A stretch of 26,405 nt of DNA, from positions 1 through 26,405 of the IMG/VR virus record IMGVR_UViG_3300032093_012416; one strand, given 5' to 3'. This stretch comes from a virus. The notes beneath the pieces were generated by a model. That model was not told where the DNA came from, made no database searches, and saw only the letters and a program-made list of their open reading frames with translations. Shown piece by piece: positions 5,931-26,405 of this stretch; the stretch's first letter is position 1; each line of letters begins with the position of its first letter. A program made the position numbers and the translations under genes.

Positions 5931-7568
5931 ATGGCTACATTAAATCTACGCCAAACTGCTGCTGTTAACGCTGGCGAAACCAATCAAAACCGTCCATTAA
6001 CTAACGCTGAAGTTGATGCCAATTTTATCAACTTGAATAGTGACAAATTAGAAAAGACTGGCGGAACATTAACAGGACTTTTAACATTACGTGCAGGTGC
6101 AGCCGGAACTAACGGTGCACCACTTCGTTTTCAAAGTGGTATAAGTTTAGCTACCCCAGTTACAGGCGCCATGGAATTCGATGGTACTAATTTATACTTT
6201 ACACCATTAGGAACACGAAAGACTGTAGCTTTTACAGATGGTAACATCACAGGTAATGCAGCAACTGCATCCGCATGGCAAACAGCTAGAACAGTCACTT
6301 TAACAGGCGATGTCACTGGATCTGCAACATTTAATGGTTCCACGGATTTTTCCATCGCCACAACTATATCAGCAGATGCCACGGTATTAGGAACAGATAC
6401 TACAGGTAACTATGTAGCTAGTATCACGAACGGTAGCTTCATGACTGGAGGTAATGGTGGCTCAGAAGGAGCCGCTCTTACATTGGCTGTAGACGCTACA
6501 AGTGCCAACACAGCTTCTAAGGTTGTGGCTCGTGATGCCTCGGGTAATTTCAGTGCTGGTACTATCACAGCATCTCTTTCAGGTAACGCATCAACAGCTA
6601 CTGCATGGCAAACAGCTAGAACATTAACATTAACCGGTGATGTGACAGGTACTTCAGCATCATTTGACGGTTCAGGCAATATCACTATTGCCACTACTAT
6701 TTCAGGTGATGCCACAGTTTTAGGCACAGACACCACAGGTAACTATGTAGCTAGTATCACCAACGGTAGCTATATTACTGGCGGTAACGGTGGTTCTGAA
6801 GGCGCTGCCTTAACTATTGCGGTAGACGCTACAAGTGCCAACACAGCTTCTAAGGTTGTGGCTCGTGACGCCTCAGGTAATTTTGCAGCAGGTACTATTA
6901 CTGCCAGTTTATCAGGTAACGCATCAACAGTTACGAACGGTGTATACACTGTCGGTGACCAATCTATTTCTGGTATCAAAACTTTTAACTCAACTATTAT
7001 TGGTAACATTGCTGGTAATGCCACAACAGCAACAACATTACAAACAGGTAGAAATATTCAAGGTGTATCCTTCAACGGATCAGGTGATATCACAGTAGTT
7101 ACAGCAGGTACTGGCGTTTCAGTTTCAGGTACTTCAGTGAGTATTGGACAAGCAGTCGCTACAACAAGCGATGTGCAATTCAATAATGCCCGTGTTTATT
7201 CATTGGGAGCAGGCCTTGCAGCACCTAATATTGACGGTCGTATTGAAGCTAAACAAGATGTTGTAGCTTATGCATCGTCCGATGAACGCTTAAAGAAAGA
7301 TATTCATAACATCCCAGAAGCTCTTGAGAAAGTATTAAAATTGAACGGTGTTCTTTTTACTTGGGATGAAGAAAAGAAAGATGTTCATGGTTATACAGGA
7401 CAAGACACAGGTGTGATTGCTCAACAAGTGGCAGCAGTTCTTCCTGAAGTTGTTATAACTCGTGAAGATGGTTTCATGGCGGTTAAATATGAAAAGATGA
7501 TGGGATTATTAATTGAAGCCATTAAAGAATTAGATGCAAAAGTAAGTGCATGCACTTGTAACAAGTAA
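5931..7568 (+). CDS. Tail fibre with C-terminal S74 self-cleaving chaperone domain
   Basis: This 545-residue tail fibre has a GAGGA ribosome site upstream of the ATG. The N-terminus carries a short attachment-type motif (LTNAEVDANFINLN) shared in pattern with the protein at 18135. Residues about 100-340 hold two near-identical 110-111-residue beta-repeats rich in Thr, Gly and Ala. From residue 449 onward the sequence (SSDERLKKDI, then GVIAQQVAAVLPEVV and YEKMMGLLIEAIKEL) is a typical S74 intramolecular chaperone, the endosialidase-type domain that trimerises the fibre and then cuts itself off. S450 and K455 have the spacing of the known Ser/Lys catalytic pair, so cleavage near residue 449/450 is expected. 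It most likely binds a host receptor. The chaperone call is strong; the receptor is unknown. Confidence 0.9.
   Translation: MATLNLRQTAAVNAGETNQNRPLTNAEVDANFINLNSDKLEKTGGTLTGLLTLRAGAAGTNGAPLRFQSGISLATPVTGAMEFDGTNLYFTPLGTRKTVAFTDGNITGNAATASAWQTARTVTLTGDVTGSATFNGSTDFSIATTISADATVLGTDTTGNYVASITNGSFMTGGNGGSEGAALTLAVDATSANTASKVVARDASGNFSAGTITASLSGNASTATAWQTARTLTLTGDVTGTSASFDGSGNITIATTISGDATVLGTDTTGNYVASITNGSYITGGNGGSEGAALTIAVDATSANTASKVVARDASGNFAAGTITASLSGNASTVTNGVYTVGDQSISGIKTFNSTIIGNIAGNATTATTLQTGRNIQGVSFNGSGDITVVTAGTGVSVSGTSVSIGQAVATTSDVQFNNARVYSLGAGLAAPNIDGRIEAKQDVVAYASSDERLKKDIHNIPEALEKVLKLNGVLFTWDEEKKDVHGYTGQDTGVIAQQVAAVLPEVVITREDGFMAVKYEKMMGLLIEAIKELDAKVSACTCNK
6273..6935 (+). repeat. Two-copy direct repeat (330-333 bp) within S74 fibre gene
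   Basis: Two consecutive units encode almost the same segment, beginning at the WQTART motif and including LGTDTTGNYVASITNG and ANTASKVVARDASGNF. A 47-base stretch at 6489-6535 recurs unchanged at 6822-6868. The identity at the DNA level, including third codon positions, points to recent duplication or gene conversion. The repeat could lengthen or shorten the fibre shaft by recombination. Confidence 0.85.
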
Positions 7569-7581
7569 GGGAGAATAAATC

Positions 7582-9045
7582 ATGGCATGTAATGATTGCA
7601 CACAATTTCAAATATACTGTTGTGACGGAGAGTGTTCAGTGGAGCCTTGCAGTACTCTCGCTCCAGATCCTCCAACTGTAACAGATCCTCCAGCAACGGA
7701 TCCTCCGTCACCTCCAACTGTAACAGATCCTCCAGCAACGGATCCTCCGTCACCTCCAACTGTAACAGATCCTCCAGCAACGGATCCTCCGTCACCTCCA
7801 ACTGTAACGGATCCTCCAACTACGCTCTTTATAACAGATCCTCCAGTAACAACTCCTCCGTCACCTCCAACTGTAACGGATCCTCCGTCACCACCAACTG
7901 TGACGGATCCTCCAACTACGCTCTTTATAACAGATCCTCCAGTAACAGATCCTCCGTCACCACCAACTGTTACTCCGTCTCCAACTACTACGTATACAGC
8001 ATGTGGAAAAACATGCACTGGTGAGGGAGCAGAATGTGATGCAGTTTGTTTTGTTTGTTGTAACGGAATATGTCAAAGTGGCGCGTGTACCACTGATGCA
8101 CCAACAACAGCGCCGCCGACGACAGCGCCGCCGACGACAGCTCCTCCAGTAACATGTCCTGGAAATTCATGTATATTGGAAGACGGTTCTGATTGTCCTA
8201 CTATACCTTTATATGAAAAAGATTGTGTTAATGGTTGCTGTGTTTATACATTAATACCTACAACACCACCGCCGACCACTGCTGCACCAACAACGGCGCC
8301 GCCAACGACACCTTGTCCACAATATACGAATTGTTGTATAGAAGATGTATCTAATCCTGGATTTTGTGTTTCTGGATCTTGTTTTCAGGCATGTACTGCA
8401 AATTGCTCTACATTGAATCAAGGAACAACTACTTATGTTGTTTGCGTAGATCCACCAACAACGCCGCCACCAACAACAGCGCCACCAACAACAGCGCCAC
8501 CAACAACAGCGCCACCAACAACAGCTCCGCCGACGACAGCTCCACCGACGACAGCTCCACCGACGACAGCGCCACCAACAACAGCGCCACCAACAACAGC
8601 TCCACCAACAACAGCGCCACCAACAACGGCGCCACCAACAACAGCTCCACCGCCTCCGGCACCGACTCCAAGTCCAACACCGGCACCGACTCCAAGTCCA
8701 ACACCGGCACCGACACCTGCACCAACAACACCGGCTCCGACACCGGCACCGACTCCAAGTCCAACACCGGCACCGACTCCAAGTCCAACACCGGCACCGA
8801 CTCCAAGTCCAACTTTACCACCTGTTCCAAATGTAGTAACACCAATTTCTATTGGTTCGGTAACTCTACATAAAGGGGGTACGGTATTGACTGGTGGGAA
8901 CTATAGTCTTGCAACAATTTCACAGGACGGCGATCCAAATGCCAGTCCATCATCAATTAATCCGAACAGTCCATCCAAGCCAGATAAAGTAGCACCTCAT
9001 GGTTTAGGTGAGTTCCTTAACTACAATCATAATATCGGAAGATAA
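7582..9045 (+). CDS. Mucin-like Pro/Thr-rich protein with four Cys-rich modules
   Basis: This 487-residue protein has a clear ribosome site (AAGGGAGA) and follows the S74 fibre directly. It alternates Cys-rich modules with Pro/Thr stalks. Module 1 is residues 3-23 (6 Cys), and a PTVTDPP-type stalk follows to about residue 137. Module 2 is about residues 141-169 (8 Cys), module 3 about 190-220 (6 Cys) and module 4 about 244-287 (8 Cys). Then come twelve PPTTA repeats and a PTPSPTPAP stalk to about residue 412. The C-terminal 75 residues are a non-repetitive domain ending in [12 protein letters not shown]. Even Cys counts suggest disulphide-bonded knots. I see no signal peptide or membrane segment, which fits a virion appendage rather than a secreted protein. 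The stalk resembles mucin O-glycosylation substrates, and eight sugar-related genes follow at once. I know no named family; the fibre role and glycosylation are inference. Confidence 0.8.
7669..7794 (+). repeat. 42-bp tandem repeat, three perfect copies ([14 protein letters not shown])
   Basis: Three identical 42-base units lie head to tail at 7669, 7711 and 7753, each encoding 14 residues of the first Pro/Thr stalk. A diverged partial unit follows at 7795. Identity at silent positions shows very recent expansion or homogenisation. Confidence 0.95.
8467..8646 (+). repeat. 15-bp tandem repeat, twelve PPTTA units
   Basis: Twelve consecutive 15-base units encode PPTTA. They differ only at silent positions (CCA/CCG, ACA/ACG, GCG/GCT/GCC-type choices). 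The unit length keeps the reading frame whatever the copy number. Shorter PPTTA runs also separate the Cys modules near 8100 and 8290. Confidence 0.95.
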
Positions 9046-9052
9046 TTAAAAT

Positions 9053-10021
9053 ATGTCTACAATATTGGTTACTGGTGCAGGAGGATTTATAGGAGGTCAT
9101 CTTGTCAAGAAGCTATCAGAATCTCATGAGGTTCGGGCTCTTGACAAGAAGCCTCTTTCCTCTTGGTATCAAATTACAGAGAATGTTACAAACATCGTGG
9201 GTGATTTAACTGATTATGAAGTTGCATTAAAAGCCACGGAAAATGTTGATGAAGTATATCATTTAGCATGTGATATGGGCGGCATGGGCTTCATTGAATT
9301 AAACAAGACATTGTGTATGTTGTCCATCATTCCAGACACAAATACCATCAAAGCATCACAAGTAAATGGTGTGAAAAAGTTTCTGTTTGCTTCTACTGCA
9401 TGTGTGTATCCAGTGTACAAACAACATACAATTGAGCCAGAACCTTTGATTGAAGGGACTGAATATCCTGCAGACCCAGAAGATGGATATGGTTGGGAAA
9501 AATTATTCATGGAAAGAATGTGTCGTCATTTCACAGAAGATTACGGTATTGAAACACGTATTGTTCGATATCATAATGTATATGGTCCCGTGGGCACTTG
9601 GCAAGGCGGCAGAGAAAAAGCTCCTGCCGCCTTGTGTAGAAAAATCTCTGAAGCTATTCATACTAAATCTAATGAGATAGAAATTTGGGGCGACGGAGAA
9701 CAACGTCGGTCATTTCTATTCATTGATGATGCAGTAGAAGGTACTATTCGTGTGATGGAAAGTCCACATCAATCAGCATTCAATATTGGATCGGATAGAA
9801 TGGTATCAGTCAATGAATTGGTTGATGTTATTGAAACTATAGCTGATGTTAAAGTTACGAGAAAATACATTCCTGGACCTTTAGGGGTTCGTGGAAGAAA
9901 TTCCCATAATGATAAAGTGAAAGCCTTATTGAATTGGGAGCCAACTATTTCGTTAGAAGAAGGAATGTCTAGAACATTTAAATGGATATCGAGTAAATTT
10001 AATGAACAAATATTGGAATAA
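9053..10021 (+). CDS. gme: GDP-mannose 3,5-epimerase (extended SDR family)
   Basis: This 322-residue protein is predicted to turn GDP-D-mannose into GDP-L-galactose (with GDP-L-gulose as by-product) in the cytoplasm. The NAD-binding Rossmann motif GAGGFIG is at residues 8-14. The segments DMGGMGFI (74-81), FASTACVYP (112-120), YGWEK (146-150), HNVYGPVGTWQGGREKAPAA (174-193) and PGPLGVRGRN closely recall plant GDP-mannose 3,5-epimerases. Catalytic C117, Y146, K150 and K189 all appear to be kept. Length is near the family norm, slightly short. The last 20 bases overlap the next gene, an O-fucosyltransferase-like protein, a class that uses GDP-L-sugars, so the pair may act as donor maker and transferase. 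Another GDP-sugar epimerase activity is possible, but the family match by eye is strong. Confidence 0.88.
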   Translation: MSTILVTGAGGFIGGHLVKKLSESHEVRALDKKPLSSWYQITENVTNIVGDLTDYEVALKATENVDEVYHLACDMGGMGFIELNKTLCMLSIIPDTNTIKASQVNGVKKFLFASTACVYPVYKQHTIEPEPLIEGTEYPADPEDGYGWEKLFMERMCRHFTEDYGIETRIVRYHNVYGPVGTWQGGREKAPAALCRKISEAIHTKSNEIEIWGDGEQRRSFLFIDDAVEGTIRVMESPHQSAFNIGSDRMVSVNELVDVIETIADVKVTRKYIPGPLGVRGRNSHNDKVKALLNWEPTISLEEGMSRTFKWISSKFNEQILE

Positions 10022-11009
10022 TATACCCTTCAATAATACATACAATCCTAAAAATAAATATATACTTTTTGATTGGTATCCTGGTGGTTGGAATAATGTT
10101 CGGATGTCCTTTGAAGTTGCATGCGTGCTAGCCTATAAATTAAATAGAAAATTAGCAATTCCTTCTAATAAAACAATATATTTGTTAAATAAAGATAATT
10201 TATCTTTAAATGATTTTTTTGATATGGATAACAACGTTGTTGAATTTATAGATTATGATACTGTTTCTATGCTAGAAGATAAAAAAACGATATCTTATCC
10301 GTTCCATCAAACTCTGTATATGTTAGAAAATAATACGATTCCGGATTATTTTAACGGAGAACATATTGTAAATTTACATCATTTAGATAATGAAGTCTTA
10401 TATTTTCCCCATAATTTAATGGGTAATTTTTATCATGCTGTTAATTGTTTAGATTTGAAATCTTTATGTCAGTATGTAGCTAAAAATATTCATTATAAGG
10501 AAGAAGTTTTTAATCAAGGTGAGCAATGTATAAAAAAATTAGGTGACCAAGATTATTATTCCATACATATACGTCGCGGAGATTTTACATCTCCTAGCTG
10601 GATGATAGGTGTTGTTGTTATAGATGCAGAAAAAATTTTGCATAACATACAGGACCTAATACCAGCTGGTTCAAAACTTTATATTGCCACTGACGAAAAA
10701 AATAAAAATTATTTTTTACCTTTTAGAGAAAAATATGATGTATATTTTTATGAAGATGTAAAATCACCAGAAACACCTGAGTATTTAAGTGGTTTGGTGG
10801 AACAAATAATTTGTGCTAGGGGAAAAACATTTATAGGTACCTATGTGTCAACATTTTCATCCTATATTAATAGATTACGTGGTTATATGCAAGATATAGA
10901 TGATAAACGAATTATAAATTTTTCAAGTAAATATATTGATCCCCATATAGATGAAGAAAAATTTAATGGACTATTTTCTAGAGAGTATAGTATAGGATGG
11001 AACTTTTAA
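10002..11009 (+). CDS. GDP-fucose protein O-fucosyltransferase-like glycosyltransferase
   Basis: This 335-residue protein starts inside the epimerase gene with a 20-base overlap. The N-terminal GGWNNVRMSFE (residues 28-38), followed by LNRKLAIP, matches the hallmark opening of O-FucT domains. HIRRGDF at 189-195 is the conserved Arg-rich GDP-sugar motif, and TYVSTFSSYINRLRG (280-294) matches the C-terminal TFSxxI.R signature. The family transfers fucose or related L-sugars from GDP to protein or glycan hydroxyls. Given the neighbouring epimerase, the donor may be GDP-L-galactose rather than GDP-L-fucose; that is inference. Base composition is strikingly AT-rich compared with flanking structural genes. 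The acceptor is unknown; the mucin-like protein upstream is the nearest candidate. Confidence 0.75.
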   Translation: MNKYWNNIPFNNTYNPKNKYILFDWYPGGWNNVRMSFEVACVLAYKLNRKLAIPSNKTIYLLNKDNLSLNDFFDMDNNVVEFIDYDTVSMLEDKKTISYPFHQTLYMLENNTIPDYFNGEHIVNLHHLDNEVLYFPHNLMGNFYHAVNCLDLKSLCQYVAKNIHYKEEVFNQGEQCIKKLGDQDYYSIHIRRGDFTSPSWMIGVVVIDAEKILHNIQDLIPAGSKLYIATDEKNKNYFLPFREKYDVYFYEDVKSPETPEYLSGLVEQIICARGKTFIGTYVSTFSSYINRLRGYMQDIDDKRIINFSSKYIDPHIDEEKFNGLFSREYSIGWNF

Positions 11010-11012
11010 AAA

Positions 11013-11852
11013 ATGACTAACATGAATTTAAACAAAGTATCTTGTGTAATGACAACATATCGTAGATTTCATTGTGTAGAACGTTCTATTGCAATGTTTC
11101 TTGGTCAGGATTATTTTAATAATGAATTAATTGTTTATAACACAGACGTTGATTTTCCAGTTTCTTTAGATTCGACTTTTAATGATGTAAAAGATAAAAT
11201 AAAAATTATTAATAATAACATTGATTTTGAAACTAAAAAACCATACACGAATGTAGGTAGTATCCGTCGTGATGCTATGACGTTTGCTTCTGGAGACGGT
11301 TATATCACCTGGGATGATGACGATATATTTTTCCCTTGGAACATAAGACAATGCTTAGATGGAATACTTAGAACTAAAAAATTTTCCTGGAAGCCAACTC
11401 ATAGTTTTATTAAACAGCGCGGTACAGAGCCAAAATTATTTTATAATAATTTAGAAGCTAGTATTTTAACCTATATGTCTAAAATATATGAATACGGTTT
11501 TAATTTACAAAAAACAGGAGCTGAGCATTTAGGGTGGCTAGATAAAATGATAGTAAATAATGAAATAGCTATTGACGATTATGCTGTACCAGGATATTGT
11601 TTTTATTGGTCGGATCCAGAAGATATTGGAGGGCATAAACAAAGTAATGGTAATGAATTTGCTCGACCAGATAATTTCGAACGTCATAAATTATACACTA
11701 CAGATTTTGCAAAAAGGCCTTTCACTAAAACGAGTTTGAAGGATCATAGGGAAATTTTTTCCGACTTCATTCCAAAATTACAAGAGTATGAAAAAACCAA
11801 TAAAGAATTGTATGACCTTTATATAGCACCTAATATTGAGAATTTGTTATGA
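11013..11852 (+). CDS. GT2-type (GT-A fold) glycosyltransferase
   Basis: The 279-residue protein opens with a typical GT-A strand (SCVMTTYRR, residues 10-18). It has a metal-binding acidic cluster, WDDDD, with D101-D104, after IRRDAMTFASGDGYI, matching the usual nucleotide-sugar DxD region of family 2. The later HxxGHKQ and the Trp/Asp-rich segment are not assignable. It starts three bases after the previous stop and so belongs to the same operon. The sugar donor and acceptor cannot be read from sequence. It is AT-rich like its neighbours. Confidence 0.75.
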   Translation: MTNMNLNKVSCVMTTYRRFHCVERSIAMFLGQDYFNNELIVYNTDVDFPVSLDSTFNDVKDKIKIINNNIDFETKKPYTNVGSIRRDAMTFASGDGYITWDDDDIFFPWNIRQCLDGILRTKKFSWKPTHSFIKQRGTEPKLFYNNLEASILTYMSKIYEYGFNLQKTGAEHLGWLDKMIVNNEIAIDDYAVPGYCFYWSDPEDIGGHKQSNGNEFARPDNFERHKLYTTDFAKRPFTKTSLKDHREIFSDFIPKLQEYEKTNKELYDLYIAPNIENLL

Positions 11853-11899
11853 AAATTTTATCAATAGAAGAACTAAAACAGGAGAAAGTAAATGTCTGA
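11849..11899 (+). CDS. Possible 16-codon leader or gene remnant
   Basis: An ATG overlapping the preceding stop (ATGA) opens a 16-codon frame reading MKILSIEELKQEKVNV. It closes with TGA just inside the next gene, and the ribosome site of that gene (CAGGAGA) lies within it. The peptide looks like a normal protein N-terminus. It could be a coupling leader that carries ribosomes to the next start, or the stub of a deleted gene. No homology is recognised. Confidence 0.2.
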   Translation: MKILSIEELKQEKVNV

Positions 11900-12605
11900 C
11901 GTTTTAAATCTTACTCATAAAAATTTTGGTGGTTATATAAAAATGGGAGATTTTATTGCTGTTTTAAATATACTTTCTTTCATTAGAAAATCTTCTGATT
12001 CAATGATTAAATTTCATCTCCCCGAGTCCGAGTTACAAAAAAAAGAACATGTTATAAAATTTAAAAATTTTTTAAATAATCATACAAATTTTTTTTCGGA
12101 AATTCCAGGTGTTAGGAACTATGAGATGAATTGGGAAATTTGGGGGTTTCGTAAAAAATATGGAGAACATGTTATAATAGATAATCCTCATACACAAGAA
12201 AAAAAAATTTGTATTTTTCCGTTATTAAACGCAAGTTATAACACTCAAAGAAATTGGCCTCTAGGTATTTTAGAAAAGAATATAAAAAAATTTTCTATGC
12301 CAGAGTATGATATGTTCAAGCGAATAATTTGTATCGAAGATGCTGGTTTAATTAATGACATTGATATAAAAAATTTTTCGATATCTACAAACTTTGAAGA
12401 TAATCTATTTCATGCGATGACCTGCTCTCATTATGTTGGGGGAGATACTGGGTTTTCACATTTTACCTCAGTTCTGTCGGACACTAAAGATTTAGTATAT
12501 TATTATAGTAAAGGATTACATGGAACATGGGAAAGCAGTTTTACTTCTCCCTTTTATACTGGAAAAAAAGGAAAAATGGAATACTATGAACATTCAGTTA
12601 TTTAA
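11892..12605 (+). CDS. GT9/heptosyltransferase-like protein (short)
   Basis: This 237-residue protein is preceded by CAGGAGA. The segment YVGGDTGFSHFTSVL (D185, H190) resembles the C-terminal nucleotide-sugar motif of GT9 heptosyltransferases (DSGxxH), and QRNWPLGILE resembles their RWP motif. At 237 residues it is well short of the usual GT9 size of roughly 330-350. It may hold a reduced N-terminal half, or be a GT-B relative with another job. The last 20 bases overlap the next gene. Assignment rests on two short motifs only. Confidence 0.5.
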   Translation: MSDVLNLTHKNFGGYIKMGDFIAVLNILSFIRKSSDSMIKFHLPESELQKKEHVIKFKNFLNNHTNFFSEIPGVRNYEMNWEIWGFRKKYGEHVIIDNPHTQEKKICIFPLLNASYNTQRNWPLGILEKNIKKFSMPEYDMFKRIICIEDAGLINDIDIKNFSISTNFEDNLFHAMTCSHYVGGDTGFSHFTSVLSDTKDLVYYYSKGLHGTWESSFTSPFYTGKKGKMEYYEHSVI

Positions 12606-13395
12606 TAAAAAAATTGAAAAGGATTTTTTTTCACATGACAATAATACCATCACTATCTTTGATAGTTTTTGTGAAGTTTTAGGTGCAAGTTATACTTTTA
12701 GTAGATTAGTTAATAATTTAGACTGGTGGAATTCATCTATAATAGTTAATGGAGATATTATTGGCAAAGGTGAAGATCCTAGAGCATTTAATTTTAATGA
12801 TATTATATCATGCTTTAGTGTAAAATGGGAACAAGAAAAAGGAACAACACCACAGCTTTTTTTATTAAAAGATAATCATTGGCAAAATATAGAAATTAAG
12901 TTTTCTATCTCAGATATTAATCTAGGGAAAAATTGGAGTCCTTTTGTTTACGACGAAGAATTATACTTCATACATGAATTCTCTCCTTTCAGAATATTAA
13001 AATTTCATGAAGGTGAAGTTACAGAATTTTTTGTTTCTGACTTTTATTCTGAGAAACAGAAATATGATGGTTATAATATTTTACGGGGAGGATCTAATGG
13101 CTTGCAAATTGGTGATAAGGTGTTAGGTTTTGGTCATACCAACATAATTTCAGACGTAGAAAATTTGTATTCCATAGTACATAGACCTTTTTTATGGATA
13201 TTGGATATGAAGAATTTTACTGTACAAATTGAAAAAATTAATTATGAGTTTGAAGAAGAATATAATATAGTAGACCCAACATCTTTCTTTATTAAGGACA
13301 AAAAAATGTATTTACAAACTGTAGAAACTGAATTTATATGGGAATACCAACCTCAAAATATTAGAAGTTGCTTATATGAGGTTGATATAATATGA
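12586..13395 (+). CDS. GH130/GT108/GT91-like five-bladed beta-propeller protein
   Basis: A longer frame opens at 12520, but I choose ATG 12586 because its protein begins MNIQLFNKK and overlaps the previous gene by 20 bases rather than 86. The 269-residue product carries GEDPRAF (62-68), KNWSPFVYD (115-123), ILRGGSNG (165-172) and GHT (183-185) in order. This motif order recalls the mannoside-active propeller enzymes: GH130 phosphorylases, GT108 and fungal GT91 beta-mannosyltransferases. Such enzymes break or build beta-mannosyl linkages. The activity direction cannot be told, and the catalytic acid is not certain. It ends with an ATGA overlap into the next gene. The location among glycosyltransferases favours a synthetic role (inference). 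Confidence 0.55.
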   Translation: MNIQLFNKKIEKDFFSHDNNTITIFDSFCEVLGASYTFSRLVNNLDWWNSSIIVNGDIIGKGEDPRAFNFNDIISCFSVKWEQEKGTTPQLFLLKDNHWQNIEIKFSISDINLGKNWSPFVYDEELYFIHEFSPFRILKFHEGEVTEFFVSDFYSEKQKYDGYNILRGGSNGLQIGDKVLGFGHTNIISDVENLYSIVHRPFLWILDMKNFTVQIEKINYEFEEEYNIVDPTSFFIKDKKMYLQTVETEFIWEYQPQNIRSCLYEVDII

Positions 13396-14393
13396 AAAAA
13401 CTATCTATAGTCATGCCCTTTTTAAAAGAAGGACTAGAACCAGTTAAAACTATAACTAGCATTAATAATACTACTAATCCCCAAGAAATTGAAATTATTG
13501 CTATTTGTGATGAACCTGAATATGAACATGAGGATTTAATTAATTCTTTTAATAATGTAAAATTTATTAAAAATTCTCATACGGTAGGTATAGACGCTTC
13601 ACGCAGTATAGGAATTCATGCAGCTACTGCACCAGCAACATTAATAATAGATGGTCATATGCGTTTTAGTCGTGATGATTGGGTTAATAAAATTTTAGAG
13701 GCAACTAAAAAAGAGCCAACTACATTATGGTGTACTAAAAGTTTAGTTCTTGATACTACAATGTCTGATGAAGAATTAGATCCTTTTAAGGATGCATTGC
13801 ACAAAGAACGACATTTTTCAGTGGGAGCAGAATTTCATTTTAATAAAGACCATAATTATCCTTTTGGGTTAATCTGGTTACATTTAACCACCTTTAAAGA
13901 TAAATATCAGGATAATGAAGTTCCGTGTGTTTTGGGAGCAAATTACGCATCTAGCACGGAATGGTTGAAACGTTCTAGATTATTTGAAGGTTTAATAGGA
14001 TATGGTTTTTCTGAGCAGTATGCTAGTATTAAAAATTGGTTATTAGGTGGTAAGTGTAAAGGTTTGGAAGACGTAGGTATTGCCCATATTTTTAGAAAAA
14101 ATAGACCATACACAGCTAACTATACACAACATCTTTATAATATGCTGTTTACAGCATATACTTTATTTCCAGATGAGCTTGACTTTTATACAAATTATAT
14201 TAACTTTATTGCATCTAAGAATGTTTCCAACCCTCAGTTTAATCTTGCATTAGAGATGTTGGAACAACGATATGATATAGTGGCTACTTATCGCCATCAT
14301 GCTTTAAGTATGAAAACCATCAAAGTAGTAGATATGCTTTCACACTTGAATATAAATTTTGAAGATATGTATAACCCAGAAACCATTGAATAA
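13392..14393 (+). CDS. GT27-like (polypeptide GalNAc-transferase-like) glycosyltransferase
   Basis: This 333-residue GT-A protein starts in an ATGA overlap. Its motif series mirrors eukaryotic polypeptide N-acetylgalactosaminyltransferases. It has an A-x-R-x-x-G-x-x-A-A segment before the donor site, then the metal motif D87-G-H89 (in place of D-S-H). Next come a GANYASS segment and an acceptor-loop-like region GYGFSEQYASIKNWLLGG (203-220), parallel to the WGGEN...GG motif. Finally VGIAHIFRKNRPY (228-240) holds H232, in the place of the third metal ligand in the VGHxFR motif of GalNAc transferases. No lectin domain is present. Family members start mucin-type O-glycans on Ser/Thr. Here the sugar and acceptor are unknown, but a mucin-like protein is encoded upstream. 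A general GT2 enzyme with a convergent DxH motif is the alternative. Confidence 0.65.
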   Translation: MKKLSIVMPFLKEGLEPVKTITSINNTTNPQEIEIIAICDEPEYEHEDLINSFNNVKFIKNSHTVGIDASRSIGIHAATAPATLIIDGHMRFSRDDWVNKILEATKKEPTTLWCTKSLVLDTTMSDEELDPFKDALHKERHFSVGAEFHFNKDHNYPFGLIWLHLTTFKDKYQDNEVPCVLGANYASSTEWLKRSRLFEGLIGYGFSEQYASIKNWLLGGKCKGLEDVGIAHIFRKNRPYTANYTQHLYNMLFTAYTLFPDELDFYTNYINFIASKNVSNPQFNLALEMLEQRYDIVATYRHHALSMKTIKVVDMLSHLNINFEDMYNPETIE

Positions 14394-14401
14394 CTTACGT
14401 C

Positions 14402-15952
14402 ATGTTTAATTTAGGATTATTTGGTTCTCATAATTCAGCAGTAGCAATCTCTAAAAACGATAAAGTGTTAGAGGTGGTAGAGGTAGAAAGGTTAGTATCC
14501 CAAAAAAATCGCGGATTTTGGTGGTACCATCATGTAGATATTCCATACAATACTTTTGCTGTTTACGAAATCAGAGATTATTTTAAAGAAAAATATGGTG
14601 TAGTTGAATATGAAAATGCTGTATTTAATTCTGTTCCAGGGTCACCTTATTCTGAAATTTTTCCGGCTAAAAATTATATACGTATGGGTCACCATATGGC
14701 TCATGCCTATTCAGGTTTTTATCAATCTTCCTATGAAGATGCACTGATAATATCAGCAGATGGAGGTTCTGATGAAGGTTTTTTTAATGTTTTTATTGCA
14801 AATCGAAAAGAAGGTATAAGAAAAATTTATTCTGGAAAAAAAGATTTAGCGGTACCTTATGGATTGATTGGACACTACATAGAAGATATAAAACGTGAGG
14901 ATATATACATTGGTAATTTAGTATATGCCGGTAAACTTATGGGATTAGCTAGTTATGGAATACCTACTAAGGATTATATAGACAAATTATATAAAATATA
15001 TAATAGTGAAAATGGTGAAGATATAAGGAAAACCCAAACTACCATCCATGATGTTTTAGGTATAATGGAAAATTATAGATTTTCTGGACAAGAAGCAAAA
15101 AATTTAGCAGCATCTAACCAATTTGTTTTTGAAAAAATATTTGAGGAGGAAAGTATACCTTTTCTGAATGAATATCCAAATTTACCCGTAATTCTTGTTG
15201 GTGGTTGCGGCCTGAATATAGTAAATAATACCAGAATATCGAAAACTAAAGAAGTGTTTGTTCCTCCTAATCCAAATGATTGTGGATTAGCGGTTGGGTT
15301 AGTTGCATCATTAATTAAGCCTGATAAACCTATTGACTGCACATACATTGGACCAGAAGTATGGGACCGGCGTGAGCTTATAAGAATCGCTAACGAAAGA
15401 ACAGCAGTTTCTCTTGACATACCAAAAATAGTTGATTATATTATATCAGGAAAAATAGTTGGTGTGGTTAGAGGCAGGTGTGAACATGGCCCTAGAGCTT
15501 TAGGTAACCGTAGTATATTGTGTAATCCTGTTATACCTAATATGAAAGATATTCTTAATTTACGAGTGAAAGGTCGTGAGTATTACAGACCTTTCGCTCC
15601 TGTAGTTCGGTTAGAAGATGTTAATAAATATTTTGAATGGGACAAAGAAAGTCGTTGGATGAGCTTTTGCCCAAATGTAAGAGATGAATATAAAGAAAAG
15701 TTAGGAGCGGTTGTTCATGTAGATGGAACTGCTCGAGTTCAAACGGTCACCAAAGAACAAAATGAATTTTTATACGAAGTTTTAAGTGAAATGCATAATA
15801 AAACTGGAATAGGAATTTTATTGAATACATCGTTCAATATAGCAGGTAAGCCTATATTAAATACATATAAAGAAGCTTTGTGGGTGTTAGATAATAAAGA
15901 CATGGATGCAGTTTTACTAGAGAATTTTTTTATAATAAAACAGGAGAATTAA
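14402..15952 (+). CDS. NodU/CmcH-type O-carbamoyltransferase
   Basis: The 516-residue protein has both domains of the family. The N-terminal ASKHA-like domain shows GSHNSA (8-13), the H97-H98-x-x-H101 cluster in GHHMAHAYSGF, and SADGGSDEG. The C-terminal domain shows EHGPRALGNRSI (361-372), YYRPFAPV and GILLNTSFNIAGKPI. Family members use carbamoyl phosphate and ATP to put a carbamoyl group on a sugar or antibiotic hydroxyl (NodU on Nod factors, TobZ on tobramycin). Length is near the family norm. It follows the GT27-like gene by eight bases and precedes the oxygenase by two. Likely role: decorating the sugar made by the surrounding genes. No strong ribosome site is visible, so translation may be coupled. 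Confidence 0.88.
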   Translation: MFNLGLFGSHNSAVAISKNDKVLEVVEVERLVSQKNRGFWWYHHVDIPYNTFAVYEIRDYFKEKYGVVEYENAVFNSVPGSPYSEIFPAKNYIRMGHHMAHAYSGFYQSSYEDALIISADGGSDEGFFNVFIANRKEGIRKIYSGKKDLAVPYGLIGHYIEDIKREDIYIGNLVYAGKLMGLASYGIPTKDYIDKLYKIYNSENGEDIRKTQTTIHDVLGIMENYRFSGQEAKNLAASNQFVFEKIFEEESIPFLNEYPNLPVILVGGCGLNIVNNTRISKTKEVFVPPNPNDCGLAVGLVASLIKPDKPIDCTYIGPEVWDRRELIRIANERTAVSLDIPKIVDYIISGKIVGVVRGRCEHGPRALGNRSILCNPVIPNMKDILNLRVKGREYYRPFAPVVRLEDVNKYFEWDKESRWMSFCPNVRDEYKEKLGAVVHVDGTARVQTVTKEQNEFLYEVLSEMHNKTGIGILLNTSFNIAGKPILNTYKEALWVLDNKDMDAVLLENFFIIKQEN

Positions 15953-15954
15953 TC

Positions 15955-16485
15955 ATGAATCAGTCAGAATTTTTTGCTAAACATGGATACGCATATATAA
16001 AAAATGTATTAACTCCAGAACAGTGTGACAACTTTTCCAAGATAATGCTAGATATGAAAAATTCTAACATACTAAGGTATGAAGGAGCTGTAGATAGCTA
16101 TCATTATAAAGAATCTTATGGTGGAAATCATAATGATTTTGAAGCGGCATTAAGAGAAGTAACACCCCGTATGGAAGAAGAACTAGGTGTAAAGTTGAAG
16201 CCTGCCAACTCTTTTGCTAGAATTTATTATAATGGTGGTACACTACCTCCTCATAGAGATAGACAAGGTCTAGATTACACATTGTCAATCACATTAAGTT
16301 CTACACTATCCTTTGAATGGCCATTGTGGTGCACAGATAAGCTAGGCAATCAGGTGCCTATTTTTATTCACAAAGGAGATGGTGGGATGATGTTGGGTAC
16401 TTCCATGGATCATTGGCGAACACCGTTAGTATGTGATCCAGAACAATATGCAATACAAATGTTTATGCACTGGTCTTTTTCTTAA
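15955..16485 (+). CDS. 2-oxoglutarate/Fe(II)-dependent dioxygenase
   Basis: This 176-residue protein follows a good ribosome site (CAGGAGAA). The iron triad is visible as H100-x-D102 in PPHRDR and the distal H153 in SMDHWRTP. The flanking SFARIYYNGGTLPPHRD segment is typical of the prolyl-4-hydroxylase-like group, common in T4-like cyanophages. The enzyme would couple 2-oxoglutarate decarboxylation to hydroxylation of a protein or sugar. The 2-oxoglutarate-binding basic residue is not certain, with R155 or a later residue possible. Nearby candidate substrates are the Pro-rich stalk at 7582 and the collagen-like fibre at 24713, whose GSKGD units have the X-Lys-Gly pattern used by lysyl hydroxylases. 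That link is inference. Confidence 0.85.
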   Translation: MNQSEFFAKHGYAYIKNVLTPEQCDNFSKIMLDMKNSNILRYEGAVDSYHYKESYGGNHNDFEAALREVTPRMEEELGVKLKPANSFARIYYNGGTLPPHRDRQGLDYTLSITLSSTLSFEWPLWCTDKLGNQVPIFIHKGDGGMMLGTSMDHWRTPLVCDPEQYAIQMFMHWSFS

Positions 16486-16510
16486 TAGTTAAATAACTAG
16501 GTAATTTATA

Positions 16511-18088
16511 ATGTTCAACGTGACTGCTTATAAAGTTGGTAACGCATTAGAGATGCGCCCAGCTTCTCCAAAACGTGACTGGATGGACATATCCAATGCA
16601 AAAAATCCGTACCGATGTTTGCCACTTAATGTAGCTAATAGTTTTGGGTGGGAAATTATCAACCCATCAAAATTCTCTGTTGAGTGGAATGGTAAAAGTG
16701 GATCTAAAGATGTAACAATAACTAAAGAATCTGGTAGTATTTTTCCTGACGCACATTTTGGTGAAGGAACTTTTACCTGGCATACTGGATACTTATTTAA
16801 AACGGAATATCCATATGCATTGTATGTTATGGGGCCTCCTAATTTTCCTAAACCTAATGTTATTTCTCTAAATGGAATTGTAGAAACTTTCTGGATACCC
16901 TTTACATTTACTATGAATTGGAGATTTACACAACCAGGCAAGGTGGATTTTGAACCAGGTGATGTTATTTGTCAGGTATTTCCAGTAGATATAACAACAT
17001 TCGATAATGTTAATCCAGAGATACGACATCTATCTGAAGATCCAGATTTAGAGGATAAATATTGGAAATGGCATATTTCTAGAAATTCTTTCGCAATACA
17101 GAAAAAAAATGGTACGGCTAAAGGTGACGCTTGGCAAAAAGATTATTTGCGTGGAGAATATGCGGATATAAATGTAACTAATGGTTGTCCAATACACTCA
17201 CTTCGTACTGATGAAGATAAGGAAAAAATACCACACAAATCTAAATTAATAGTACCTGAATTTAAAGTTATTGACGGATCACCATATTACACACCGCATA
17301 AATATGCTGAGCTATTACGAAAAGTACGAGAGAATGATTTTCCAGATACAAATAAACCTATAGAAATTAAACCATCAGGTGATAACATGCTTATAACATA
17401 CCCCAACACAAACGAAAATACTTTACCAGATATAGCAGAAAAAATAAATAACACAAATAATTTAGTGATGTTGTATGTAACAAGTAAAAATGATTGTAAT
17501 GAAGTAAATGATATTACAACTAACCAAGAAACTCTACAAAACAAAATAAGAGAAAGTTTTGTTGACCGAATTGATTTACACATATTATGTGTACCAGAAA
17601 ATGAAATGCCGTTTCCAAAAATACAAACTGACACGCTGTATTATTTCGCACCAAAAAATCAAAAGCCACTATTTTACAGAGAACGTCATTTAATTCTCCA
17701 AGATTTGGATCATGATATTGAAACTGCGTTTAACATGGCATCAACCGGTGCATCCTATTATGATACCAAGTTTGATGCCAAGACCAAAGAAGGTATTTTC
17801 AAAACTGAAAGTTATATGAAGGAAGATACTTCCCGATTCCCATCAGCATTCAAAATGGCTAGAAATTTAGCCAAGGAAATGTGGAAGACATCCAAGAATG
17901 CAGCCAAAGGATTACCTATTCTTGTGCCAGCTGAAGTTGGTATTAGTCGATTTAGTACTTGTGAAATTTGTGAACATTTGGATCAAGCCAACTTCCGTTG
18001 TACACAATGTGGATGTTTCATGAAGACCAAAACACAATTGGCTTCAGCGTCATGTCCAGTAGGTAAGTGGGGCGAATACGCTGGGTGA
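16511..18088 (+). CDS. DUF6065-like protein with C-terminal zinc-ribbon-like tail
   Basis: This 525-residue protein has two recognisable ends. Residues about 10-220 (PASPKRDWMD, YRCLPLNVANSFGWEI, HFGEGTFTWHTGYLF) resemble DUF6065, a family of unknown function often found near sugar-modification genes. Residues 484-520 hold C484-x2-C487, C497-x2-C500-x-C502 and C515 in a CPVGKW context. This Cys pattern, with C-C-GCF then CPxxKW, is a frequent tail on T4-like cyanophage proteins and probably binds zinc. The middle (about 265-440) is low in recognised motifs. Within it, residues about 310-400 look like a separate domain, and residues about 400-470 are denser in Lys and Ala. The protein ends the cassette, and a late promoter follows. 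Molecular function is unknown. Confidence 0.6.
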   Translation: MFNVTAYKVGNALEMRPASPKRDWMDISNAKNPYRCLPLNVANSFGWEIINPSKFSVEWNGKSGSKDVTITKESGSIFPDAHFGEGTFTWHTGYLFKTEYPYALYVMGPPNFPKPNVISLNGIVETFWIPFTFTMNWRFTQPGKVDFEPGDVICQVFPVDITTFDNVNPEIRHLSEDPDLEDKYWKWHISRNSFAIQKKNGTAKGDAWQKDYLRGEYADINVTNGCPIHSLRTDEDKEKIPHKSKLIVPEFKVIDGSPYYTPHKYAELLRKVRENDFPDTNKPIEIKPSGDNMLITYPNTNENTLPDIAEKINNTNNLVMLYVTSKNDCNEVNDITTNQETLQNKIRESFVDRIDLHILCVPENEMPFPKIQTDTLYYFAPKNQKPLFYRERHLILQDLDHDIETAFNMASTGASYYDTKFDAKTKEGIFKTESYMKEDTSRFPSAFKMARNLAKEMWKTSKNAAKGLPILVPAEVGISRFSTCEICEHLDQANFRCTQCGCFMKTKTQLASASCPVGKWGEYAG

Positions 18089-21280: not shown

Positions 21281-24200
21281 CTATTTTGGTCTATATATCG
21301 CTGACCCTATATGGTCACATATAATTGTGGAATCAACATATATTGATGCACCATGTTTTGCGGCTTCTCGACAAAAATGTATATCTTCTGATATCGTATG
21401 TTGATGATTAAGAGCTGAATGATATACAAATTGGGGATAAGATATTTTTCTAATTACTTCAGACTTTACTAATACACATCCAAAACCACAACCATCTATT
21501 TTATGCAATCCTGCGGGTGATATATCTTGCATGGAAATATTGCTCATACCTCCATGAGAGTTATATCTATAAATTTCTAAAATTTCTTGATTGGGTTTTC
21601 TTTGAATATAGACACCAGATACCATATCAACATTATGAGCCATCAATTTTATTAATGTATCTTCAGGCAACACAATATCACTGTCAACTGAAAATAGATA
21701 ATCATATTTTTCTGCCCATTGTGCAATTAAATTGCGTATCTGGTCTATTTGATACCCATAAAAATATTGAAATGAAACTTCAACATTTTCAGGTATTTTT
21801 AAATCGTAAATGCTTTTAAAGGTTTCGGGTTCAATATACTTGTTCGTAGGTATAGCGAGCAATACCTTCTTTTTTTCTAAGGGAATATGTTTCTTTTCTA
21901 CTAACGGTTGAGTTCTACTTGGGGGAGGACGATTAGTGAATTTGTAAACGGTATCGTTACAGCTTCCTACTATATCCACAATCTCATATCCTAACTGCTC
22001 AAGTATATGGGTACATACATCATTCGTAGTCTCTGGGCCTTCACACACTATCAAAGGTTTAAACTTTTCAATAGTTTTTATTGCGCCCATCAACGCATAC
22101 ATTTCATACCGTTCTACATCTAGTTGAATTAAATCACACTTTTCAAGATTTAATGAGTCGATGGTCACTACTGGGATATCACCGGTATCATTATTCTCAG
22201 GAATAAAACAACCTGTGTTTTCGTTGTTCCATTTACGTAATGAAATTTTTCGGTCATATGCTCCTACTGCGGCATTTGTTTTTATAATATCAGCCTGAGG
22301 ACAATTCTTCTGTAAATAATAGAAATTAGTAGAATCTGCTTCAAACGTATATACTTTCTTAAAATGATTATGAAATAATCTAGGGTACATGCCTTGATGA
22401 CCGCCTGCTTGTACACACACATCAAAGTTACTCATGTGTTTTAGAATGGCATTTTTTAATGGGAACCAATCTTCTTTAATATATCGCCAGGACAAATCAG
22501 AATCATCAGACCAAAACCATGGTCCAACATTGTCGATATATTCATTCTTAACTACATATGGAATATCGCTCATTTTACGAATACTGTTAGATGTTTTGTT
22601 TTGTTCTTCACGATTCACCTTGTAATCATTTAATGGGTTCACATCATTGTACCGATATACAACATCTGTGATGGCACGAATTTTATTAGGATCAGCTTGT
22701 TCTATGATATTGTAAAACGTGGCATTATCTCCCCCAGCTCGAAACCATTCACCATTCTCATGTCGAAACTTGCTGATTTCAACGTTGTTGATAAGATGTT
22801 TTCTGAATGTACGTAGATGTGTGTATGGAATACCCCATGCGAAAATATGTGTACGATACGACTTGGCTTGCCGCACATAATCAGGATATGGTTGTGCTAT
22901 CAAAGGAATATTGTCTGCCATTGACATCATAGATCCATATGTAAATTCTACCGACCCGTCATAGGTGTTGTTATACTTGTGAAACAAATCATTTCTATTA
23001 ATTAAACTATCATCACCATCCAACATCATGATGATGTCATCATCTGGGAGAGGTAAAATGTTTAATACTTGGTTACATACAGCTCCAACATTTTTTCCGT
23101 TGCGAATAAGCTTATATTTTTTCTGTATCTGAGATGGCAATGAATGAATGATGTCTTGTGCAACATCAAACGAACCATCAGTAGATGCATCATCAATCAA
23201 ATAATGAGTGAAGTTTTCGTAGTCTTGTGTGGCCGTAGAAAGAATACAATCTTTTAAATATTGTTTTGCATTATAGAATGGTGAGATGATGGAAATATGC
23301 TGCTGAGGTCCATGGGAATATTCATTCCATTCTTCAGTATTACTGAAACGTCTACCATACACTTCATGGATACGGCGATTCAATTTTGTTACAGCACGAT
23401 AATCCTCAACTGGAAGATATAAATTCAACTTACGATAGAAGTGTTGTTTCCATTGTAGTGCGATTCCACCCCATCCTGCTACATCATGAACGATGTTACA
23501 GTATTGTGATTTTTGCAAATACAAATAATCGTTACTATATGCATGAAGAACCGTTTCAACAAATTTTTCAACTTGTTCATCTTCATTAATTTCTGGAAAC
23601 AATCCATTTGGCTGAATAGCGTAATCCACTTTATAACAAGCATTATCAATCGCTACTTCTTCCAACGCCCCAAATCTGTTAGTAATCACTGGTGTGTTAT
23701 ACAACATGGATTCTAACGATGAAATGCCAAATGTTTCTGGGAAGGCACCTGGGAATATCATGAAACGTGCAGATGCTAAATGTTGAGCAATTTCTTTTTG
23801 TGGAATCAGACCTGTGAATTCAACATTTAGATTTCTCAAATCATCACGCTGAGACAATTCACGCCATTGCTTTTCTTGCTCGTCAGGTTCAGCCCCATCA
23901 TGAAAACGATAGAAGCCGCCAATGACACGCAACTTAATATCAGGTAATAGTTGCTTTAACTTAGGCCAAATTTTATTTACAAGGGGCATTAATCCTTTGC
24001 TGATAGATGCGTTGTAAATGAATAAGTTTTTATCTTTGGCATTCACATCTACTGAATCAATATATTTGCGTGCCCCGTTTCTTGTGACAAAAACTCGATT
24101 CTTTAATACCTCAAAATTTCTTCTTTTCTGATGTAAACAATTGGTGATGTACGATGTGTGAAAATCTGAAAGTGTGAACAATTCATCAATGTAATTTTTC

Positions 24201-24610
24201 ACTAACAATTCTTCAACAAACTCATCTCCTGAACAAAACGTATCATGTAACCACAAAACCTTTAGTTTCGCAGATTTACGTAAACATTGATACCGGTTCA
24301 TATGTCCAGGATATCTAAAATCTTCTGGTAGAAATGGTAAAATGGTTCTGGATGAAATCAAGATGTCACATGAATAATTCTGGTTATTCTGAAGTTGACG
24401 GATATCAATATACTCCACACCGTCATATATCCCTTCTTTGGCTCGACTGTCGGTGCAGTTATTGAAAACTGTGACATCAAACCCTTGGTTTTTCAGTTCT
24501 CGCGCCATGTAAATTATAGCGGATTCTGAGCCTCCCAACCCATAATTTTCCAAAGTGGTTGGATCATACGACAAGCCCATCACATCAACAATGGCAATTT
24601 TCACCGTCAT
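21281..24610 (-). CDS. Four-domain GT4-GT2-FkbM methyltransferase-GT-A fusion protein
   Basis: I choose ATG at 24610, with TGAGG eight bases ahead; the GTG at 24619 touches that ribosome site. The product has 1,109 residues. Residues 1-400 are a GT4-like GT-B domain with the E-x7-E motif E292/E300 in [12 protein letters not shown]. Residues about 438-690 are a GT2 domain with DDAST and LDGDD (531-535). Residues about 728-895 are an FkbM-type methyltransferase ([24 protein letters not shown]). Residues about 912-1109 form a second GT-A domain with SVDSD (975-979), DGCGFGC and SEDIHFC. It could build, link and O-methylate a short glycan on a single scaffold. It is the only gene on this strand, and is probably read from its own sigma-70-like promoter. 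Acceptor unknown. Confidence 0.85.
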
Positions 24611-24634
24611 TATAAACACCTCAGTTCAAGAACG

Positions 24635-24712: not shown

Positions 24713-26405
24713 ATGGCGAACTTGATTAAAATTAAGCGCTCCGCAGTTCAGGGAAAAATACCTGTTGTAGGTGATTTGGAACTCGGAGAATTAGCCATCA
24801 ATACACATGATGGTAGAGTATTTCTAAAAAAAGATGACGGAACTGCTTCCGTAGTTGCTATTGGAACAGTTGTAACTTCCACAACTGCCCCCAACTCCCC
24901 TATTGACGGTCTTCTTTGGTGGAATTCTGAAGATGGCCAATTAAAAATTTGGTATGAAGATGAGGACGGTGGTCAATGGGTGGATGCTGTCACAACGTCG
25001 CAGGGATTTACTGGAAGTCAAGGCGCCACAGGTTTTACTGGTAGCAAAGGTGATACTGGATATGCTGGAAGTACTGGATACACAGGAAGTCAATATACCG
25101 TAACAGCTTCAACAACTGCACCAGGATCTCCGGTTGAAGGAGCTATCTGGGTGGATAGCACTACTGGTAAATCCTATTACTATTATAATTCTCAATGGAT
25201 TTTATTCTCTAATCCTATGGTACAAGATGGTGCCACAGGATTTACGGGAAGTCGTGGACTCATAGGATATACAGGAAGCAAAGGCGATTCTGGATTTTCA
25301 GGAAGCAAAGGCGATACTGGCTTTACTGGAAGCATTGGATACACCGGAAGTCAAGGAGCCACAGGATTTAATGGCAGTCAAGGAGTGACAGGATTTGACG
25401 GCAGTACCGGCGCCACTGGTTTTACAGGATCAATTGGTTTCACTGGTAGCAAAGGCGACACAGGTTTTGACGGCAGTACCGGCGCCACTGGTTTTACAGG
25501 ATCAATTGGTTTCACTGGAAGCGTAGGCTTCACCGGAAGCAAAGGCGATACAGGCTTTACCGGAAGCAAAGGTGACACAGGCTTTGACGGTAGTGTAGGT
25601 TTCACCGGAAGTCGTGGCGCCGACGGTAATTTTGGTGGTGCTACTTTTGATTACACCTTTGATACTAACACAAGTAATGTAGATCCGGGTCAGGGAAAAA
25701 TATCATTCAATAATGCCAATTTATCATTAGCCACAGAAATGTATATTGATGATACCAATGATGGTGCAATGGATATTCAAACATTTCTTAGAACCATTGA
25801 TGACAGCACTTCTCAACTAAAAGGTCATTTTAGGTTGTCTAATAAGTTGGATGCTAATGATTTTTCCATTTTTACTATCACATCTATTACTGAAAATGTT
25901 GGTTATTTCACTGTATCATGTGCTTATATCACAGGTTCAACTGCGTTTTCAAACGGCGAAGATGTAATAATTACTTTTGCAAGAACTGGAGATAGGGGTG
26001 ACACTGGTTTCACCGGTAGCAAAGGTGACACGGGATTCGACGGAAGCGTTGGATTCACTGGCAGCAAAGGTGACACTGGTTTCACTGGCAGCAAAGGTGA
26101 CACAGGCTTTGACGGCAGTGTGGGCTTCACAGGTAGCAAGGGCGACACAGGCTTTGACGGCAGTGTGGGCTTCACAGGTAGCAAGGGCGACACAGGCTTT
26201 GACGGCAGTGTGGGCTTCACTGGTAGTAAAGGTGATACTGGTTTCACTGGTAGTAAAGGCGACACAGGCTTTGACGGTAGTGTAGGTTTCACTGGTAGTA
26301 AAGGTGATACAGGATTTGTTGGAAGCAAAGGTGATACTGGTTTTACTGGTAGTAAAGGTGACACGGGATTCGACGGAAGCGTGGGCTTCACCGGTAGCAA
26401 AGGCG
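24713..26405 (+). CDS. Collagen-like tail fibre, 3' end outside window
   Basis: The frame is open from an ATG with an AGGAG site to the window edge (564 codons, no stop). The N-terminus ([13 protein letters not shown], then [13 protein letters not shown]) is the same kind of attachment module as in the 600-residue fibre. A short linker contains [16 protein letters not shown], and a related motif, [16 protein letters not shown], recurs after the first block. Gly-X-Y blocks are at residues about 98-128, 173-305 and from 426 on, with units GFT-GSK-GDT and GFD-GSV. A non-collagen domain (about 306-425: [32 protein letters not shown]) lies between the last two blocks; it is a type I recall from cyanophage collagen-like fibres. 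A trimeric fibre is predicted. Lys in GSKGD and Thr in the Y position are possible modification sites. Confidence 0.9.
26104..26238 (+). repeat. 45-bp tandem collagen repeat
   Basis: Units starting at 26104, 26149 and 26194 each encode [15 protein letters not shown]. The first two are identical in DNA, while the third diverges at silent positions in its second half. Related but shuffled triplet blocks continue to the right edge and also occur at 25380-25625. Recent expansion or gene conversion is likely, and copy number can change without frameshift. Confidence 0.9.

Follow-up and report, generated by a model that had tools for sequence, protein, structure and literature searches.

A GT27-like glycosyltransferase encoded in a phage glycan cassette and its relatives in Bacteroidales: a candidate polypeptide O-glycosyltransferase

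The window, by which we mean the whole stretch of DNA analysed here, is a virus record from IMG/VR, 26405 bases long, that apparently derives from a T4-like aquatic myovirus. It encodes a GT-A glycosyltransferase built like the mucin-initiating enzymes of animals. Enzymes of mucin-type O-glycosylation are regarded as chiefly eukaryotic, and the GT27 polypeptide GalNAc-transferases are known from animals and apicomplexa. We consider it probable that the phage enzyme is a metal-dependent polypeptide O-glycosyltransferase that decorates a Thr/Pro-rich phage protein, where the acceptor and the donor are what we infer.

The enzyme gene starts with ATG, overlaps its upstream neighbour by 4 bases and is followed by the next gene 8 bases after its stop codon, and the open reading frame is real. 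Its features are as follows.
13392 to 14393, + strand: GT27-like GT-A glycosyltransferase of 333 amino acids without a lectin domain (Pfam, phmmer against PDB, profile, AlphaFold2 and Foldseek)
13650 to 13658, + strand: D87-G88-H89 (DxH), predicted first and second metal ligands, aligned with D-S-H of GT27
13998 to 14051, + strand: acceptor-loop region G203-G220, GYGFSEQYASIKNWLLGG, in which WGGEN is not conserved (column comparison of 32 proteins)
14085 to 14111, + strand: H232-IFRKNRP-Y240, comprising the predicted third metal ligand H232 as well as R235 and Y240, aligned with GH(I/V)(Y/F)RK..PY of GT27
The motifs that a sequence-only reading had listed are all found at the positions it gave, namely A69-S-R71-S-I-G74, D87-G-H89, G203-YGFSEQYASIKNWLLGG-220 and the block from V228 to Y240 (V228-GIA-H232-IFRKNRPY-240, nucleotides 14073-14111). 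Pfam assigned the enzyme only to the broad Glycos_transf_2 family (PF00535, 2e-10, 41.2 bits against a curated cut-off of 23.3), and the PHROGs search gave nothing convincing. The DxD metal motif of ordinary GT2 enzymes is not present, and DGH is found instead. A C-terminal ricin-type lectin domain had no Pfam match within the 333 residues, which agrees with the earlier description of the enzyme as lectin-less.

Comparison with known structures placed the enzyme close to GT27. When all PDB chains were searched by phmmer with the single enzyme sequence, the best match was GalNAc-T10 (1e-9), followed by GalNAc-T9 and GalNAc-T2. The alignment to these enzymes spanned residues 4-248, with D87 and H89 on D-S-H and H232 on G-H-I-Y-R-K. 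A 17-sequence family profile matched GT27 enzymes in the PDB at 1.4e-28 to 5e-16, nearly all across the whole domain, while the best match outside GT27, chondroitin synthase (3e-13), covered only the first 105 positions, the N-terminal third. The profile of three DxH-type phage proteins led to the same GT27 outcome (1e-21). We then compared an AlphaFold2 model of the enzyme (pLDDT 84.4, pTM 0.88) with the PDB using Foldseek, and the best 50 matches were all GT27 GalNAc-transferases (E 4e-17 to 3e-14, TMq 0.56-0.74). The GT27-like fold proposed from the sequence is supported by phmmer, profile and Foldseek alike, and the profile and predicted-structure checks proposed with it returned GT27 enzymes rather than ordinary GT2 enzymes as best matches. 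The proposed metal site of DxH plus a third His is also supported by the alignment, in which D87, H89 and H232 lie on the GT27 ligands, and the enzyme is most likely metal-dependent with ligand residues of the GT27 type.

The GT27 GalNAc-transferases share with the enzyme the GT-A fold, DxH, the third His, the Arg and Tyr of HxxR....Y and an alignment over the full length. They differ from it in that the enzyme has no ricin-type lectin domain and no membrane anchor that we could see, carries YGFSE for WGGEN and GA for GG, stands outside the GT27 clade and is about 17% identical. Because it lacks the lectin domain, the WGGEN and GG motifs and a place in the clade, we did not file the enzyme as GT27.

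The active-site columns were examined across 32 family and reference proteins, among which D87 is kept in 24, H89 in 24, H232 in 30, R235 in 24 and Y240 in 23. The GG donor-site motif (GGLF in GT27) is replaced by G-A-x-Y in nearly the whole group, with GA in the enzyme, and WGGEN is replaced almost group-wide by [WY]Gxx-E, in which the acidic residue lies one position later. The claim of a WGGEN-like loop is therefore only partly right, since the framework [WY]GxxE...S.K.W..GG is common to both but WGGEN itself is absent. As the WGGEN and GG motifs are changed, the donor or the acceptor may differ from those of GT27, and UDP-GalNAc should not be assumed to be the donor of the enzyme. Judging from the alignment, a DxH metal site universal in the group is contradicted by the homologues with GxD and NxR. 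Six phage homologues have GxD...H in place of DxH, and two in the column comparison have NxR...N in place of DxH...H; these variants indicate that the ligand set shifts as a unit within sublineages. The GxD...H variants (L018, L019, L021, L022, L037 and L041) carry an aspartate at the usual His position. The DxH ligands are lost in the NxR variants (L020 7998-8888, L038 9035-9913 and L049 8725-end), as is the third His wherever the 3' end is present, and the NxR genes of L020 and L038 sit just before an apparent major tail protein gene. The NxR homologues are possibly metal-independent or inactive.

The sequence-only reading had proposed that the enzyme would be a notable outlier, a phage relative of a chiefly eukaryotic family, but the search for relatives showed that it does not stand alone. 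Scans of IMG/VR viral contigs yielded about 15 related phage lineages, and a genome scan yielded seven Bacteroidales loci; sampling of 393 Bacteroidales genomes gave 4 clear cases, and sampling of 395 Bacteroidota genomes gave 1, in a genome already counted among those four. Of all the relatives, the Bacteroidales genes come closest to the window protein (29-39% identity), and they carry DGHMRF and GH(I/L)(F/Y)R..PY motifs as it does. In the tree, which held only three GT27 and three outgroup rows, GT27 formed its own clade (100/99) with the window protein outside, so that nesting of the enzyme within GT27 is not borne out. The Bacteroidales clade (100/98) likewise formed without the window protein, which branched singly and had no sister group resolved in a tree of long branches and few reference rows. 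The enzyme belongs, as one of several branches, to a GT27-like group of prokaryotes and phages in which the Bacteroidales RiPP-cluster enzymes are included. The scan of viral contigs with the window protein alone as query gave no match. A tblastn search of the 50,697 deposited phage records of INPHARED yielded no homologue for the window protein, even at E 10, or for the proteins of L046, L021 and L031; with L239 and P0002 as queries, the only matches were weak ones of GT2 type, almost all of them partial. The DNA pattern for HIFRKxRPY hit 15 contigs, all by chance (short or in wrong frames), and L051 was dropped from the family as a non-member GT2.

The Bacteroidales relatives reside mostly in RiPP-type clusters. 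RiPP machinery was present in 10 of 11 Bacteroidales loci, which include two same-genome pairs (L240 with L272, and L243 with L245). TIGR04149 GG-leader precursors were detected at L239 (1e-13, 8e-12), L271 (4e-12) and L269 (4e-8), and borderline at L240. Radical SAM/SPASM peptide maturases occur at L242, L243, L245 and L271, C39-peptidase ABC exporters at L240, L241, L271 and L272, and a LanB dehydratase at L269 (8e-137). For L244, the RiPP assignment comes solely from the LanC-like domain fused to the transferase and from a weak match to SPASM, and L270, which begins at a contig end, shows no RiPP machinery there. The precursor cores beside the glycosyltransferase are often Ser/Thr-rich; that of L242 ends in PTTEETTEETTPEEITTPEA and that of L245 contains SSTPTPTQEG. 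A LanC-like domain is fused C-terminally to the glycosyltransferase in L239, L244 and L269 (PF05147 at 1e-3 to 3e-4, below the curated cut-off) and is encoded beside it at L271 (7e-6). These GT27-like and LanC-like fusions lie at L239 8001-9644, L244 1886-3520 and L269 8029-9687, and it is possible that they represent combined glycosylation and cyclisation enzymes. Peptide S-glycosyltransferase domains have been described in some radical SAM plus LanC regions of B. fragilis and P. distasonis (PMC10352776), to which we liken our loci by description only. Since RiPP regions are common in Bacteroidales and some radical SAM plus LanC regions hold peptide glycosyltransferase genes, this is a known kind of site for a peptide glycosyltransferase. 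Compared with the phage enzyme, several of the Bacteroidales enzymes carry the LanC-like C-terminal domain, and their likely acceptor is a small GG-leader peptide instead of a long repeat protein.

In the window, the enzyme gene belongs to a glycan cassette that is headed by the gene of a Thr/Pro-rich protein, 4.3 kb upstream of the enzyme. The surrounding genes are as follows.
5931 to 7568, + strand: tail fibre protein, whose gene immediately precedes that of the Thr/Pro-rich protein (PHROGs long tail fiber distal subunit, 1e-40)
7582 to 9045, + strand: Thr/Pro-rich repeat protein of 487 amino acids, candidate acceptor (open reading frame and repeats)
9053 to 10021, + strand: GDP-mannose 3,5-epimerase-like enzyme, for nucleotide-sugar supply (PDB 2c59, 2e-90; Pfam Epimerase, 5e-44)
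10002 to 11009, + strand: O-FucT-like glycosyltransferase (PF10250, 6.4e-27, above the curated cut-off; weak POFUT2 match, 3e-4)
11013 to 11852, + strand: second, unrelated GT2-like enzyme with aspartates DDDD and without DxH (weak PF00535, 0.005; far outside the family in the tree)
14402 to 15952, + strand: NodU/CmcH-type carbamoyltransferase (Pfam Carbam_trans_C, 8e-61; Carbam_trans_N, 6e-18)
15955 to 16485, + strand: small protein, possibly 2-oxoglutarate dioxygenase-like (weak, PhyH at E 0.09 only)
16511 to 18088, + strand: DUF6065 protein at the end of the cassette (Pfam DUF6065, 4e-76)
The Thr/Pro-rich protein contains 104 Thr and 130 Pro among its 487 residues, with PPTTAPPTT and TDPPSPPTV repeats between Cys-rich segments, and had no passing match in Pfam, PHROG or cultured phages. 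Two unassigned proteins are encoded between the GT2-like gene and the enzyme gene. The G+C content is about 32% in the cassette (9053-18088) and 37% in the adjacent tail gene, a difference compatible with separate acquisition of the cassette.

We infer a protein acceptor, and from here the identity of that protein, an initiating role and the purpose of the modification are proposals. The enzyme would transfer one sugar from a nucleotide-sugar donor onto Ser/Thr side chains of a polypeptide in the infected cell. The most plausible acceptor would be the Thr/Pro-rich repeat protein, whose gene has the tail-fibre gene on one side and the glycan cassette on the other. The remaining cassette enzymes (GDP-mannose 3,5-epimerase, O-FucT-like enzyme, GT2-like enzyme and carbamoyltransferase) would then elaborate or cap the glycan, and the outcome would be a virion with a mucin-like decorated fibre. 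Two points in the window count against this pairing, namely that the enzyme gene and the tract gene are not direct neighbours and that other transferases are nearby; the O-FucT-like protein, weakly similar to protein O-fucosyltransferase 2, is itself a second candidate protein glycosyltransferase of the cassette.

Genes with Thr/Ser/Pro tracts were found near the phage homologues in 6 of 15 lineages, compared with 3 of 67 viral loci taken at random (Fisher 9e-4), where a tract gene had at least 18 T, P or S in 30 residues within 8 kb of the homologue. When the window was left out, the association was 5 of 14 lineages (Fisher 3e-3). These figures are to be read with the threshold and the lineage counting set after inspection, with small numbers and with random loci unmatched for glycan cassettes. 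By type, the association was seen in 6 of 9 DxH-type lineages and in 0 of 6 others (p 0.017). The tract gene lies immediately upstream in L044/45 and L046 (T9EAPPPT9; a run of at least 22 T), and tract genes also occur near the homologues of L050, L023 and the L031 group. In L019 (T10) and L021 ((TTTAAA)n), weaker tracts below the threshold are encoded directly upstream. The reverse test argued against Thr tracts generally implying a GT27-like enzyme, since 80 of 83 phage loci with a Thr9 tract had no such enzyme in the DNA examined; the tracts therefore do not require the enzyme. The enzymes of the other three (L058, L165 and L168) look like other GT-A families and were rejected.

Because the Bacteroidales relatives lie in RiPP-type clusters and the phage relatives repeatedly beside Thr-rich proteins, the enzyme probably glycosylates protein. 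A polypeptide acceptor is supported by these two independent genomic contexts, and the suggestion that it is Thr-rich gains circumstantial support from them. A broader proposal, which we offer tentatively, is that the superfamily of mucin-type O-glycosylation enzymes has a cytoplasmic branch without lectin domains, common to phages and Bacteroidales, and that this branch acts directly on ribosomal products, namely RiPP precursors in the bacteria and mucin-like virion proteins with Thr/Ser/Pro tracts in the phages.

The main rival explanation is that the enzyme lengthens a glycan that is present beforehand on the fibre or in the O-antigen or capsule of the host and is not a polypeptide transferase, and that its likeness to GT27 reflects the common GT-A core. 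The other transferases and the sugar-nucleotide epimerase of the cassette would fit this, as would the altered WGGEN and GG motifs and the broad GT2 assignment by Pfam. However, the match to GT27 is full-length and includes the C-terminal His/Arg/Tyr block, whereas other GT2 structures match the N-terminal part only, and the nearest relatives are in RiPP clusters and not in polysaccharide loci. We regard glycan extension as unlikely, while giving it more weight than the following two alternatives. Phage GtrB-type transferases modify the surface glycan of the host, and the enzyme could act likewise in seroconversion or superinfection exclusion instead of on a phage protein. This is improbable, as the GtrB PHROG match of the enzyme was only 0.08, no GtrA/GtrB flippase pair was recognised in the cassette, and the cassette sits among T4-like tail-fibre genes in a window where no integration genes were seen. 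Glycosylation of phage DNA at 5-hydroxymethyl-pyrimidine, as in T-even phages, appears more improbable still. T4 glucosylates its own DNA according to a passage of PMC13216743, and virus-encoded transferases put diverse glycans on DNA according to work cited in a passage of PMC12619734. The gene considered here, in contrast, is in a tail-fibre region, no nucleotide-modification gene was recognised across the 26 kb by Pfam or PHROGs, and the relatives adjoin peptide precursors and tract genes.

Two other known systems resemble the proposed polypeptide O-glycosyltransferase in part. The virion glycosyltransferases gp108-gp110 of mycobacteriophage Che8 are likewise encoded by a phage, and Che8 virion proteins are reported to carry glycans (Freeman et al. 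2023, as relayed in passages of PMC11256854, PMC12363180 and PMC12619734). They differ in family, gp110 being GT25-like and gp108 a GT2 plus methyltransferase, and kinship was rejected as they had no real match to the family profile. The SunS-type glycocin S-glycosyltransferase is also GT-A, acts on a ribosomal peptide and matched the profile weakly (0.003), but this match is far weaker than that of GT27 and covers the N-terminal part only. Our literature search, the coverage of which was partial so that existing accounts are possible, found no description of phage GT27-like enzymes. Small single-domain relatives of the mucin-type enzymes, present both in phages and in RiPP clusters of Bacteroidales, would be informative about the origin of the fold and the metal site. 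They would also suggest a role for the Thr/Pro tracts of many uncultured phage proteins, form a second family of candidate virion glycosyltransferases and provide a soluble bacterial enzyme as a tool for protein O-glycosylation. If the shared lectin-less branch exists, phages would encode a mucin-like system of protein O-glycosylation that has no relation to that of the mycobacteriophages.

Several further observations were made on the loci. Tracts of Thr9 or longer are common in the proteins of uncultured phages (83 of 120 pattern-matched loci, L052-L171). Other DxH-type GT-A enzymes are encoded near phage Thr tracts at L065 2863-3831 (IDAHMRF), L165 4243-5091 on the - strand (MDCHVLL) and L168 158-1009 on the - strand (IDSHVIL), and they are not close to the window family. 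In a large phage contig, L044 and L045 each encode at 8651-10894, right behind the Thr-tract gene, a 747-residue protein that combines two GT-A domains, of which the second is GT27-like. In the window, the unassigned protein at 12520-13395 had no PDB match and carries GEDPRAF and NWSPF motifs, in which it resembles five-bladed propellers of the GH130/GT108 type. The closest solved structures to the product of 9053-10021 are the GDP-mannose 3,5-epimerases 2c59 and 8sg0 (2e-90), and the phage enzyme is a possible source of GDP-L-galactose or GDP-L-gulose. The view that the window comes from a T4-like aquatic myovirus draws on its 1869-residue tail protein, which is closest to VrlC-type proteins of Ochrobactrum, Methylophilales, Acidovorax, Pelagibacter and Synechococcus phages, and on the tail fibre gene that comes next. 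After the fibre genes, 21281-24619 on the - strand encodes a composite protein of 1112 residues with glycosyltransferase and methyltransferase PHROG matches. Finally, 25378-26400 is a long low-complexity repeat region with antisense open reading frames, possibly a collagen-like Gly-X-Y gene that runs off the contig.
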